DNA of 64,000 nucleotides from assembly GCA_900470805.1 (NCBI GenBank), contig UCCA01000039.1, forward strand, positions 1 through 64,000. The letters run 5' to 3'. Each line of letters starts with the position of its first letter. Within the stretch, counting starts at the first letter, position 1. The notes under the pieces are model-generated. The model did not search any database. It worked only from the letters and a program-made list of their open reading frames with translations, and was not told where the DNA came from. The DNA comes from Hyphomicrobiales bacterium (GTDB lineage: Bacteria > Pseudomonadota > Alphaproteobacteria > Rhizobiales > Rhizobiaceae). Below are positions 27,266 through 31,187 of the stretch, piece by piece. Made by a program: the position numbers and the translations under genes.

Positions 27266-27751
27266 ATGACCATCGCAATCGGTGACACGCTTCCGGCGGC
27301 AACCTTCAAGGAAAAGACAAGCGACGGCCCGGTCGAGACGACGACGGACAGCCTGTTCAAGGGCAAGCGCGTGGTGCTGTTCGCCGTGCCCGGCGCATTC
27401 ACGCCGACCTGCTCACTGAACCACCTGCCCGGCTACCTCGAAAACCGCGACGCCATCCTCGGCAAGGGCGTCGACGATATCGCGGTGATCGCCGTCAACG
27501 ACTGGCATGTGATGGGCGCCTGGGCACAATCATCCGGCGGCGCCGGCAAGATCCACTTCCTTGCCGACTGGGACGCCTCCTTCACCAAGGCACTCGGTCT
27601 CGACGCCGACCTCTCCGGCGGCGGCCTCGGCGTGCGCTCGAAGCGCTATTCGATGCTTGTCGAGGACGGTGTCGTCAAGTCGCTTAATGTCGAGGACAAT
27701 CCCGGCCAGGCGACTGTCTCGAGCGCCGCGACGATGATCGAGCAGCTCTGA
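27266..27751 (+). CDS. Peroxiredoxin (Prx5/hybrid type)
   Basis: A 161-residue thiol peroxidase that reduces hydrogen and organic peroxides using glutathione, glutaredoxin or thioredoxin. The active site PGAFTPTCS places the peroxidatic Cys at 49. VIAVNDWHVMGAWA and DWDASFTKALGLD are typical of the Prx5 subfamily. No C-terminal glutaredoxin domain is fused. GAGGAGA lies six bases before the ATG. Confidence 0.93.
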   Translation: MTIAIGDTLPAATFKEKTSDGPVETTTDSLFKGKRVVLFAVPGAFTPTCSLNHLPGYLENRDAILGKGVDDIAVIAVNDWHVMGAWAQSSGGAGKIHFLADWDASFTKALGLDADLSGGGLGVRSKRYSMLVEDGVVKSLNVEDNPGQATVSSAATMIEQL

Positions 27752-27845
27752 GGCGACGGGCCCATGCACCTGCTCTGACGGGGGAGAATATTCCGTCGTG
27801 GGTGTTTGCCGAGAGCCGAAACGTCGTAATCGTGGCGACGTGATT

Positions 27846-27874
27846 AGATCCTCGGGACGAGCCCGAGGATGACG
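27846..27874 (+). repeat. Palindromic intergenic repeat, copy A
   Basis: A 29-base element containing ATCCTCGGG, a 5-base spacer and CCCGAGGAT, ending in GACG. It is nearly the reverse complement of copy B at 27934-27962 (three differences). Such ATCCTCGG palindromes are scattered between genes in rhizobia. Confidence 0.7.
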
Positions 27875-27933
27875 GCGGAGTGTGTGGCAGGCGTTTCTAA
27901 CCCGTTGAAAGAACGACGTTTCAGCTCGTTCGA

Positions 27934-27962
27934 CGTCATCCTCGGCCTTGTGCCGAGGATCT
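27934..27962 (-). repeat. Palindromic intergenic repeat, copy B
   Basis: The inverted partner of copy A: CGTCATCCTCGGC, a short loop, then GCCGAGGATCT. Together with the 59 bases between, the pair could fold into a large hairpin. The 410 bases from 27752 to 28161 hold these repeats and no gene that I can support. Confidence 0.7.
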
Positions 27963-28161
27963 GCCAGGGGTTCGAATTTTTCGACGCAATTGGATCCTGA
28001 GGCAGAGCCAAGCAACTTTTTCGGGGCTTCGCGTTTCCGCGCCTCCCCTATCGACAACGCCCCGTTCTTTCCGAGCATTTGCGGGGGCCCGTCAACCGCC
28101 GCCGCTACCTCTCTGCCCTTATCCCCACCTCCCATACTCACCGCCACAATCTTGCCATATT

Positions 28162-28192
28162 TGTTATAACATAACAGTAATGTTATTACATT
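28162..28192 (+). promoter_or_regulatory. Zur-type operator (two overlapping palindromes)
   Basis: TGTTATAACATAACA at 28162-28176 is a TGTTAT/ATAACA palindrome of the alphaproteobacterial Zur type. It is followed two bases later by AATGTTATTACATT (28179-28192), a second related palindrome. They lie directly before the zinc importer operon, 12 bases upstream of its first start codon. Confidence 0.8.
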
Positions 28193-28203
28193 TGAGGCAG
28201 TTT

Positions 28204-28326
28204 ATGAAATCACGCTCGACCGCTATCGGCGCCATCGGACTATCGGCCGCCAACCGGGTGCTCGGCGCCATCATGCTCGCCGGCCTGTTGTGGGCCGCCA
28301 TCGCATGGGCCGTCCGCCTGCCATGA
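28204..28326 (+). CDS. 40-residue membrane peptide leading the zinc importer operon
   Basis: A short gene between the Zur box and the ABC importer. GAGG lies 6-7 bases before the ATG. The product begins MKSRSTAIGAIGLSAANRV and continues with a hydrophobic helix (about 20-37: GAIMLAGLLWAAIAWAV) ending RLP. Its TGA overlaps the ATG of the ATPase gene (ATGA at 28323-28326), so the two are translationally coupled. I do not recognise a family. It could be a small transporter subunit or regulator, or a leader that sets translation of the ATPase. Confidence 0.65.
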   Translation: MKSRSTAIGAIGLSAANRVLGAIMLAGLLWAAIAWAVRLP

Positions 28327-29063
28327 GCGCCCCCCTCATCCGGCTTTCCAACCTGACGGTTGCCTATAACAGACATCCGGCGGTCCACCACGTCTCCGGC
28401 AGCATTGCATCCGGCAGCCTGACGGCGATCGCCGGGCCGAACGGCGCGGGAAAATCGACGCTGTTGAAGGCGATCATGGGCGAGATGCGGCCTTCCGGCG
28501 GTCAGATCGAGCACCAGCTAAAGCGCACCGACTTCGGCTACCTGCCGCAGGCCGCCGATATCAACCGGCGCTTTCCCGTCACCGTGCTCGACACAGTGAT
28601 GATGGGCGCGTGGCGGCAGATGGGTGCGTTCGGGCGGGTCTCCAAAGACGAGATGGCCAAGGCGCGCGCCGGGGTGTCCGCCGTCGGGCTCGAAGGCTTC
28701 GAAACGCGGCTGATCGGCGCCCTGTCGTCCGGCCAGCTGCAGCGCGTGCTGTTTGCCCGGCTGCTCTTGCAGGATGCCAAGGTGATCCTGCTCGACGAGC
28801 CGTTCACGGCGATCGATGCGCGCACCACACGCGACCTGATCGACATCATCCGGCGCTGGCATGGCGACGGTCGAACGATCATCGCCGTGCTGCATGACTT
28901 CGAGCAGATCCGCGCGCATTTTCCCGAGACGCTGCTGCTCGCCCGCGAGATGATCGACTGGGGGCCGACGGCAACCGCGATGTCAGCAGCAAACCTCATG
29001 AAGGCGCGCGCCATGGCCGAGCGCTGGGACGAGGACGCAGACACCTGCGCGCCGGCAGCATGA
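28323..29063 (+). CDS. Zinc ABC transporter ATP-binding protein (AztA/TroC/ZnuC type)
   Basis: A 246-residue ATPase of the cluster-9 (Zn/Mn) ABC importers. Walker A GPNGAGKST is at 38-46, LSSGQLQR is the ABC signature, ILLDEP is Walker B, and the His switch is in VLHDFEQ. It starts in a four-base overlap with the 40-residue peptide and ends in a four-base overlap with the permease gene. Gene order ATPase-permease-binding protein fits the AztABC and TroCBA systems. The Zur box upstream argues for zinc. Confidence 0.92.
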   Translation: MSAPLIRLSNLTVAYNRHPAVHHVSGSIASGSLTAIAGPNGAGKSTLLKAIMGEMRPSGGQIEHQLKRTDFGYLPQAADINRRFPVTVLDTVMMGAWRQMGAFGRVSKDEMAKARAGVSAVGLEGFETRLIGALSSGQLQRVLFARLLLQDAKVILLDEPFTAIDARTTRDLIDIIRRWHGDGRTIIAVLHDFEQIRAHFPETLLLAREMIDWGPTATAMSAANLMKARAMAERWDEDADTCAPAA

Positions 29064-29932
29064 CGATCTACGATCTCCTTTTCGCACCCTTCATCGATTA
29101 CGGCTTCATGCGCCGGGCGCTGGTCGCATGTCTGTGCCTCGGGCTCGGATCCGGGCCGATCGGCGTGTTCCTGATGCTGCGGCGGATGAGCCTGGTCGGC
29201 GACGCGATGAGCCACGCCATCCTGCCGGGCGCGGCGATCGGCTATCTCGTTGCCGGCTCGCTGTCGCTAACGGCGATGGGCATCGGCGGGCTGGTGGCTG
29301 GGCTGGCGGTGGCGCTGTTGTCGGGCGCGGTCAGCCGGGTGACGGTGCTGCAGGAGGATGCGAGCTTTGCCAGCTTCTACCTGGCATCGCTGGCGCTTGG
29401 CGTGCTGATCGTGTCGCTGCGTGGCTCCAATATCGACCTGCTGCATGTGCTGTTCGGCACCATTCTCGCCATTGATCCCCCGGCCCTTTACCAGATCGGC
29501 GCGATCACGACGCTGACGCTGGTGGCGCTCGCCATCATCTACCGGCCGTTGATTGTCGAATGCTTCGATCCGAGTTTCCTCAGGGCGATCGGCGGGCGCG
29601 GTCCGGTCTATCACTTCCTGTTCCTGCTGCTCGTCGTACTCAATCTCGTCGCCAGCTTCCAGGCGCTCGGCACGCTGATGGCCGTCGGCCTGATGATGCT
29701 GCCGGCGGCGATCGCGCAGCTATGGGCGCGCAGCCTGCCTGCGATGCTGCTGGTGGCGGCGGCAAGTGCCGCGGCGTCCGGCTATTTCGGACTGATCGCC
29801 TCCTACCATCTCGAACTCGCCTCCGGCCCGACGATCATCATGACGGCGGCGCTGATCTATGGCTTTTCCATCTTTTTCGCACCGTCGGGCCTTGTCCGGC
29901 GCCTATTCCCCCGCCCGCATCTCAAGGGCTGA
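29060..29932 (+). CDS. Zinc ABC transporter permease (AztB/TroB/ZnuB type)
   Basis: A 290-residue ABC-3 family permease with about eight or nine membrane helices. The family pattern GSGPIGVFLMLRRMSLVGD followed by AMSHAILPGAAIGYL is near 28-60. It overlaps the ATPase gene by four bases, and the binding-protein gene follows 16 bases after its stop. It forms the membrane channel of the zinc importer. Confidence 0.92.
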   Translation: MTIYDLLFAPFIDYGFMRRALVACLCLGLGSGPIGVFLMLRRMSLVGDAMSHAILPGAAIGYLVAGSLSLTAMGIGGLVAGLAVALLSGAVSRVTVLQEDASFASFYLASLALGVLIVSLRGSNIDLLHVLFGTILAIDPPALYQIGAITTLTLVALAIIYRPLIVECFDPSFLRAIGGRGPVYHFLFLLLVVLNLVASFQALGTLMAVGLMMLPAAIAQLWARSLPAMLLVAAASAAASGYFGLIASYHLELASGPTIIMTAALIYGFSIFFAPSGLVRRLFPRPHLKG

Positions 29933-29948
29933 CACAAAGGATATCTCG

Positions 29949-30848
29949 ATGATTTCGCGCAGACTGCTTCTTTCCGCGGCACTTCCGACGCTGATGGCGC
30001 TTTCCGCAATGCCGGCATCGGCAGAGACGCTAAAGGTCGTCGCCTCCTTCACCGTTTTGGCCGACGTGGTCAAACAGGTTGGCGGCGACCATGTCGATGT
30101 GAAGAGCCTCGTCGGCCCGAACGGCGACCCCCATGAATTCGAGCCGTCGCCCACCGATGCCAAGAACCTCAACGCTGCCAAGGTCACCTTCGTCAGCGGC
30201 GAAGGCCTGGAAGGCTGGATGGACCGGCTGATCACGGCATCCGGTTACAAAGGCAAGCCGGTTGTCGCGTCCGAGGGAGTCAACACCCGCACGATGGAAG
30301 AGGACGGCCAGACCGTGACCGATCCACATGTGTGGAACAGCCCCGTCAACGTAAAGGTCTGGGTCTCCAACATCGAGAAGGCGTTGTCGGAAGCCGACCC
30401 CGCCGATGCCGCCGCCTTCAAGACCAATGCGCAAGCTTACACCAGCAAGCTCGACGAGTTGGACGCTTACGCAAAGTCGAAGTTCGAGAAGATCCCCGAA
30501 GACCATCGCAAGGTACTGACCAGTCATGACGCCTTCGGCTACTTCGGCCGCGAATATCATGTCGGCTTCCTGGCGCCGCTTGGTGTCTCCACCGAGAGCG
30601 AAGCCTCGGCCGCCGACGTCGCCAAGCTGATCGAGCAGATCAAGGCCGAGCACGTGAAGACCTACTTCTTCGAGAATTCAAACGATCCGCGTCTGGTAAA
30701 GCAGATCGCCAAGGCGACCGGCGCCGAGCCGGGCGGCGAGCTTTATGTCGAGTCGCTATCCGGTGCCAAGGGACCGGCTTCGACCTACGAGAAGATGTTC
30801 CGCTACAACGTCAACCAGATCACCGCCGCAATGGCGAAGAGCAGCTGA
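29949..30848 (+). CDS. Zinc ABC transporter substrate-binding protein (AztC-like)
   Basis: A 299-residue periplasmic cluster A-I binding protein. Signal peptide 1-~24 (ends ASAETLKVV). Metal-ligand histidines are visible in GDPHEFEPSP, TDPHVWNSP and TSHDAFGYF. The fourth ligand position, normally Asp in LYSDALS, is Glu268 in LYVESLS. The His-rich flexible loop of classical ZnuA is absent, which fits AztC rather than ZnuA. AztC systems usually have an AztD chaperone, but no aztD gene follows here. ATG 29949 begins a normal signal peptide; the frame is open further upstream. Confidence 0.9.
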   Translation: MISRRLLLSAALPTLMALSAMPASAETLKVVASFTVLADVVKQVGGDHVDVKSLVGPNGDPHEFEPSPTDAKNLNAAKVTFVSGEGLEGWMDRLITASGYKGKPVVASEGVNTRTMEEDGQTVTDPHVWNSPVNVKVWVSNIEKALSEADPADAAAFKTNAQAYTSKLDELDAYAKSKFEKIPEDHRKVLTSHDAFGYFGREYHVGFLAPLGVSTESEASAADVAKLIEQIKAEHVKTYFFENSNDPRLVKQIAKATGAEPGGELYVESLSGAKGPASTYEKMFRYNVNQITAAMAKSS

Positions 30849-30878
30849 TAGTCGAGCGACACTCTTCGGCCTGCGGGG

Positions 30879-31187
30879 TCAAACCTGCAGGTCGAAGACG
30901 ATGAGGCCGCCAAGACCGCCATCCAGCGACGACACGATCCGCTCGCCGACGACGACATGATCGGGATGGACGAGATAGGCGTCACGCGCCTCCGGACTTT
31001 CGAACGTGACCGCGAAGCCATCGACGAAGCCGGCATGCAGCCCTTCCGGCGAGACATTCGGGCCGTACTTGATATCGATAATGCCGGGAATGACCTGCTT
31101 CAGGGCGGCGATCGATTCGAACAGGGATTGCTTTTCTTCGCCCGTGATGGCGGCCTTCAGCCGCATCAGCACCGAGTGCAGGATCAT
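30879..31187 (-). CDS. Dabb (stress-responsive A/B barrel) protein
   Basis: A 102-residue dimeric alpha-beta barrel protein. The N-terminus MILHSVLMRLK, the GVNVSPEG-like segment YGPNVSPEGLHAGF and HPDHVVVGERIVSS are the Dabb pattern. The family includes stress-induced plant proteins and some cyclases; bacterial members are mostly uncharacterised. GGGAGG lies six to seven bases before ATG 31187; a longer frame to 31247 is unlikely. The gene is convergent with the zinc importer. Confidence 0.85.
   Translation of the reverse strand: MILHSVLMRLKAAITGEEKQSLFESIAALKQVIPGIIDIKYGPNVSPEGLHAGFVDGFAVTFESPEARDAYLVHPDHVVVGERIVSSLDGGLGGLIVFDLQV

Follow-up and report, generated by a model that had tools for sequence, protein, structure and literature searches.

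A small single-helix membrane protein encoded ahead of zniC as a candidate accessory subunit of Zni-type zinc importers

The 40-codon frame that precedes the ATPase gene of a putative zinc importer operon in the window (the whole 64,000-nucleotide stretch of Rhizobiaceae DNA analyzed here) looks, from its sequence, like a real peptide gene, considering the preservation of the frame, the signature of selection at the protein level, the overlap with the ATPase gene and the Zur-like boxes in front of it. The interpretation that we favor, with moderate confidence, is that the product is a genuine 40-residue inner-membrane protein that would act as an accessory subunit of the Zni-type importer, docking on the permease. 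Because the peptide is conserved and travels with one importer branch across many Proteobacteria, this importer has probably been described with one of its working parts missing. The published work on Zni, in the parts of it that are drawn upon here, treats and mutates importers of this class as three-gene systems. Should a fourth, nearly invariant membrane part, frequently overlooked by annotation, be real, the existing deletion and promoter constructs would need to be re-read, reconstitutions might lack a component, and there would be a handle on the tuning of ABC zinc importers after their synthesis.

The small frame, its operator and the importer genes

The frame extends on the forward strand from the ATG at 28204 to the TGA at 28324-28326 and encodes the peptide MKSRSTAIGAIGLSAANRVLGAIMLAGLLWAAIAWAVRLP. 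A GAGG ribosome-binding site (28194 to 28197, forward strand) is located 6 nt 5' of the ATG, and the TGA overlaps by 4 nt, in the form of ATGA, with the ATPase start codon at 28323. The small gene sits between a tandem Zur-like operator and the AztA/ZniC-like ATPase gene. The sequence-only reading of this DNA had described a 40-residue frame with this ribosome site and this overlap, and the sequence confirms both. An alternative in-frame ATG at 28180, which would give 48 aa, is disfavored because it lies inside the second Zur-like box and a ribosome site is not evident.

The operator consists of two abutting 15-bp units, back to back and without an assigned strand, namely box 1, TGTTATAACATAACA (28162 to 28176), and box 2, GTAATGTTATTACAT (28177 to 28191). 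Each has a single match in the window at up to two mismatches, that of box 1 being exact, with 0.00 (box 1) and 0.01 (box 2) matches expected in shuffled sequences. When up to two mismatches are allowed, box 2 occurs 3 times in the 6.49 Mb genome; the control, in which the pattern is read backwards, gives 1 forward and 1 reverse match. The reading of the boxes as Zur sites, already put forward as a double operator by the earlier reading, is sound because the other two genomic matches (L420 and L421; G000:C52, around 36061 and 37188) have as neighbors a znuA/znuC-like pair of divergent genes and a frame resembling a COG0523 GTPase, these names being our reading of the translations. Box 2 is conserved exactly in 111, and at up to two mismatches in 143, of the 147 loci from the same genus; box 1 is found at up to two mismatches in 92 of the 147. 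Farther upstream, between the peroxiredoxin gene and the operator, there is an inverted repeat (27846-27962) with 32-nt arms that are 88% complementary and 53 nt apart, which we take to resemble a rhizobial intergenic palindromic element. An Rfam scan of 27700-30900 produced no match at the gathering score, and an RNA leader or riboswitch was rejected on this ground.

The large genes of the operon encode, all on the forward strand, an AztA-like ATPase, ZniC (246 aa, 28323 to 29063, PF00005), an ABC-3 family permease, ZniB (290 aa, 29060 to 29932, PF00950), which is joined to the ATPase gene by another ATGA overlap at 29060, and a zinc-binding protein of the ZnuA family, ZniA (299 aa, 29949 to 30848, PF01297). 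The nearest curated NCBIfam families for all three are those of the AztABC(D) importer; however, all three proteins of the window remain under the respective cut-offs (211.7 bits vs 220 for AztA, 263.4 vs 280 for AztB and 283 vs 350 for AztC) and are thus not assigned to AztABCD. Inspection of the list of frames reveals no conspicuous aztD-like gene beside the operon. The order of ATPase, permease and binding protein behind a Zur box is that of ZniCBA.

In Rhizobium leguminosarum UPM791, zniCBA has been tested and found to be a Zur-repressed zinc importer, growth at low zinc requires at least one of ZniCBA and ZnuABC, and a Zur motif lies 153 bp upstream of zniC, according to the sections of the report considered here (Soldek et al. 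2025, PMC12183173). The same distance of exactly 153 bp separates the start of box 2 from the ATG of zniC in the R. leguminosarum-type loci L266, L271 and L272, where a 42-codon frame fills the 125 bp adjoining zniC; in the window, the corresponding distance is 146 bp, the peptide being two codons and the leader one base shorter. Because the gene order is the same and the 153-bp Zur motif is reproduced in these three loci, we take the operon of the window to be the R. leguminosarum zniCBA, to which zinc-specific uptake and Zur repression would extend by orthology with the UPM791 system. The same sections of that report describe an 88-bp promoter fragment as inactive and a 258-bp fragment as active (PMC12183173); judging by the distances, the former would start within the small frame and the latter would include it.

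Conservation and phyletic spread of the peptide

The zniC ATPase is present, at E 1e-60, in 147 of the 148 genomes of the same genus (Rhizobium), G099 being the sole genome without it. A single upstream region per genome was used for all 147, with the second, more distant ATPases of G164 and G089 excluded, and in every one of them the stop codon of a small frame overlaps the start codon of the ATPase gene (143 ATG, 4 GTG) as A/GTGA. Under the start rule that was applied, the peptide begins with ATG in 145 of the 147 loci, and after start curation its length is 42 aa in 115 of them. The loci encode 136 different peptides, and within the last 27 codons of these, S-27, R-23, L-12, W-11, I-8, W-6 and A-5 are each found in at least 135 (L and A in all 136; S, R, I and both W in 135); the core of the family reads SAxxR...LWxAIxWA.

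The dN/dS ratio in frame is 0.18 (Nei-Gojobori; 400 pairs differing at 5-25% of bases), compared with 1.15 (71 pairs) and 1.97 (400 pairs) when the frame is shifted by one and two bases, respectively, the pairs being non-independent in that they share sequences; for a stretch located 150 bases upstream, the ratio is 0.99, from only 11 pairs. Stops interrupt the +1 frame in 124 and the +2 frame in 51 of the 144 unique sequences. The sequence-only reading had made its case depend on conservation of the peptide sequence and the frame in relatives that carry the same operon, and both turned out to be kept, with the dN/dS value of 0.18. A short stretch beside an operator might, in principle, be a chance open frame kept by constraint on the DNA; this explanation is extremely improbable and is effectively refuted by the substitution pattern, by the stops in the shifted frames and by the spread of a family that is recognizable across Pseudomonadota.

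Scans against Pfam and NCBIfam with 26 Rhizobium members and 10 distant members of the family brought up no known family near its cut-off. The best matches, NCBIfam SepX/GlpR (E 0.0025) and YshB (E 0.0041), score far below the NCBIfam cut-offs, and identity with either was rejected. The peptide profile has one match in total in the genome at E 0.01, that is, no second copy; it scores at most 6.7 bits in the loci, each about 3.5 kb long, that encode nine further ABC ATPases of the genome, including a znuC-like one, and at most 8.3 bits in the rest of the window. In named genomes, a narrow alignment of Rhizobium-type peptides identified 27 loci, of which 22 come from records named Rhizobium, R. 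johnstonii 3841 and R. leguminosarum included, and five from 'Rhizobiales bacterium' records.

In a draw of 394 genomes from the same family, the peptide profile A1 matches 48 (E 0.01) and the ATPase query 149 (E 1e-60); within the closer ATPase branch, to which the locus of the window belongs, all 45 loci have the frame, vs 0 of 25 AztA loci. Draws at the class and phylum levels (385 and 398 genomes, respectively) yielded ATPase matches in 62 and 65 genomes, and the 113 further loci from these draws, which are all listed places beyond the earlier loci except for G243, comprise 104 positive and 9 negative ones (L355, L395, L399-L405). A profile built from the genus only exceeds 10 bits upstream of 160 of 219 ATPases on the coding strand and of 0 of 219 on the reverse strand. 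The detection rate follows ATPase identity: 58 of 58 loci at 66% or more, 41 of 42 at 58-66%, 32 of 40 at 55-58%, 12 of 22 at 53.5-55% (an example of the distant members that the genus-only profile overlooks in part), 17 of 35 at 51-53.5%, falling to 0 of 22 at lower identity. After three rounds of iteration, the profile reaches at least 10 bits upstream of 184 of the 219 ATPases, a non-random sample, given that selection was by ATPase similarity, up to the phylum level, and took in many loci from Rhizobium. L221 and L227 represent the same peptide. Because the iterated rounds include rows that they score, independent figures are those obtained with the genus-only profile.

Of the 35 misses, 33 are AztA loci, one is an aztA locus on a Klebsiella plasmid (L223, annotated as aztABC and distinct from the chromosomal zniCBA of K. 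pneumoniae that gave the system its name) and one is the borderline locus L355. The AztA sample (25 + 8) consists of 32 of the approximately 105 loci in the family search and one from the phylum search; besides these 33 loci, the frame is absent from 7 further annotated AztA loci on plasmids (L409-L415), which in this respect differ, as does the entire sample, from the operon of the window. The NCBIfam AztA threshold (E 2e-65, equivalent to about the 220-bit cut-off) is passed by 33 of 33 peptide-less ATPases vs 5 of 32 peptide-bearing ones and is, accordingly, an imperfect divider. L355 (G893:C28) is a second ATPase copy in its genome that is preceded by a look-alike small frame scoring 4.1 bits, and was counted as a miss.

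In a maximum likelihood tree of the 219 ATPases, a quick one that is midpoint-rooted and has some long branches, the peptide label changes twice, compared with a mean of 33.0 for shuffled labels, and a single clade (SH-aLRT 99) unites the peptide-less rows with one exception out of 35, namely L355. Because of the midpoint rooting, a gain in the Zni branch and a loss in the AztA branch are indistinguishable. One genome, G338, provides an internal control, in that its Zni-type ATPase is accompanied by the peptide and its AztA ATPase is not (G338:C10 and G338:C16; L239, L261).

The spread extends to records of Comamonas antarctica and Neisseria gonorrhoeae, which carry the frame next to ATPases with only 47-48% identity; scored with the genus-only profile, the respective peptides reach 21.3 and 13.4 bits, and with the iterated one 29.1 and 25.3 bits, compared with at most 8.6 bits anywhere in nine loci without the peptide. 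The N. gonorrhoeae peptide (L418) consists of 34 aa from its ATG and ends in an ATGA overlap with a metal importer ATPase; it has no listed gene in a record in which hardly any genes are listed. Plasmid loci of Rhodobacterales (L406, L407 and L408) score 35.9, 14.9 and 32.9 bits with the iterated profile, L407 reaching 1.4 bits with the genus-only one. The link does not hold for every non-Azt relative, because a Bradyrhizobium plasmid system (L417) that has no Azt annotation lacks the peptide as well. Annotation of the gene is uneven: it is a 'hypothetical protein' in the records of Thioclava GXIMD2076, Skermanella, Paracoccaceae LA6 and Comamonas, and is unlisted in Bartonella HY038, Neorhizobium NCHU2750 and Thioclava GXIMD4216, the plasmid gene table used being, according to its description, incomplete.

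These observations bear on the view that the frame is a leader and nothing else, the translation of which opens the ribosome site of the ATPase gene and sets the dosage of ZniC, with a product that is jobless. Such a role would suit the first frame past the operator, equipped with its own ribosome site, and coupling by itself could preserve the overlap, which is found in 147 of 147 same-genus loci and, in the wider set, in 152 of 184 (30 of 30 genus rows and 122 of 154 others). A leader, however, does not depend on particular residues, whereas Ser, Arg, Trp, Ile and Ala positions of the peptide are nearly invariant and dN/dS is 0.18; furthermore, 32 of the 154 members from outside the genus have lost the overlap and retained the peptide, the sampled AztA operons manage without the frame, and Rfam finds nothing in 27700-30900. 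Hence a leader without any further function is decidedly unlikely. The sequence-only reading had left the choice between a small transporter subunit and a coupling leader, and this interpretation is supported; the conservation of residues, together with the association with a single ATPase branch, makes a functional protein preferable to a pure leader, with coupling of ZniC translation probably occurring as well.

Membrane topology, histidine-rich tails and the proposed role

The single membrane helix that had been suggested from the letters of the sequence reappears in the AlphaFold2 model, which is one helix (residues 4-38, mean pLDDT 85.5). Within 12 residues of the membrane stretch, Lys and Arg are in excess on the N-terminal side in 175 of 182 unique peptides, with 6 ties and 1 case of fewer, and because these residues are mostly on that side, the N-terminus is predicted to be inside. 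The peptide of the window contains no His. Outside the Rhizobium-type set (L031-L218), 29 of 124 members carry a His-rich N-terminal tail, defined as five or more His among the 70 residues that precede the helix; within the set, the count is 1 of 58, and that one (L032) is an artefact of a too distant start codon. Such counts use the farthest start codon, so that tail length may be overstated. In one group from the same order (L340, L343, L344, L364, L377, L378, L383-L386), 9-18 His are found within the 70 residues before the helix. With a 60-residue limit, the tail is present in 30 of the 184 rows of the tree, with 12 changes on it. Because the tails are missing in the Rhizobium-type rows and change 12 times on the tree, zinc binding is not the core function of the peptide.

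Two further comparisons concern the partner proteins. The His loop of ZniA has a median of 3.5 His per 25 residues in 14 loci with a tail vs 6.0 in 23 loci without one, from partial sequences and with overlapping distributions; no claim is made that the His loop of ZniA has been traded for the His tail of the peptide. Among the 290 positions of the permease, 15 appear Zni-specific in a comparison with only 9 permeases, and their reading as marks of a docking site is suggestive at most.

Our hypothesis, then, is that the peptide, as the first gene product of the Zur-repressed zniCBA operon, would be translated at zinc limitation along with the ATPase, to which it would be translationally coupled. 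Its helix would be inserted with the N-terminus inside, so that SAxxR would mark the cytoplasmic end and LWxAIxWA would point toward the periplasm. The helix most likely packs on the ZniB permease, the likeliest partner because the conserved part lies within the membrane; by doing so, it might stabilize the importer or tune transport. In the many relatives that possess it, the His-rich cytoplasmic tail could bind zinc at the exit side, either receiving the metal or signaling fullness. A broader version of this hypothesis, which we advance tentatively and consider possible but doubtful, holds that Zni-type importers are four-part throughout Pseudomonadota, Neisseria included, with the subunit serving as a cytosolic zinc-sensing or zinc-receiving element. 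If true, the helix would lock on the permease and the tail would provide feedback or hand-off, that is, a post-translational layer beside Zur.

The same data can be read in the opposite functional sense, with the peptide as a negative regulator, comparable to MgtR in its action on MgtB, which would send the permease to a protease or slow it down once zinc becomes available again; the His tail, where there is one, would be the sensor of cytosolic zinc. The His-rich tails are on the predicted cytosolic side, and the size and layout of the peptide fit MgtR, MgtS and MntS as far as these are described in the part of the source used here (PMC10710835). Against this stand the operon organization, from which co-induction with the importer at zinc limitation would be expected, and the lack of His in the Rhizobium form of the window; we find such a regulator rather unlikely. 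It is very improbable that the peptide works on its own as a zinc-binding protein anchored in the membrane, buffering zinc or passing it on without any contact with the transporter: His-rich tails in 29 of the 124 members outside L031-L218 would suit such a function, yet most members, including that of the window, have no such tail, the conserved part is the membrane helix, and presence of the peptide tracks the ATPase branch with one borderline exception (L355). An accessory subunit that contacts the permease remains our preferred interpretation, in keeping with the selection on the protein, its association with one ATPase branch, its place in a Zur-repressed transport operon and its single helix.

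Comparison with known small proteins and importers

A literature search at the level of titles and the openings of abstracts found no description of this peptide. Several among MgtS, MgtR, MntS and SgrT are single-helix membrane proteins. Small membrane partners of transporters are a known kind: AcrZ is a single-helix membrane protein, and AcrZ, MgtS, MgtR, MntS and SgrT are likewise small proteins that act on transporters, according to the portion of the source consulted (PMC10710835). None of these five is described there as acting on an ABC-3 zinc importer, the comparison being one of descriptions only (PMC10710835). LucB is a small transmembrane protein in the structure of a mycobacterial lipid-uptake ABC transporter, again as presented in that portion (PMC10710835); in contrast to the peptide analyzed here, it belongs with another importer family and another substrate, as judged from descriptions only. 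The peptide shares with proteins of the AcrZ, MgtR and LucB type a single helix in fewer than about 60 aa and co-occurrence with one transporter branch; some of the His-tailed relatives exceed this length, and the peptide of the window, at 40 aa, is within it. With respect to ZniCBA of UPM791 itself, the sections of the report considered here give zniC as the start of the operon and treat the preceding region as promoter, with the small frame unmentioned in these sections (PMC12183173). On the searches described here, a small-protein partner for ABC-3 zinc importers, with such a spread and with His-tailed forms, appears to be new.
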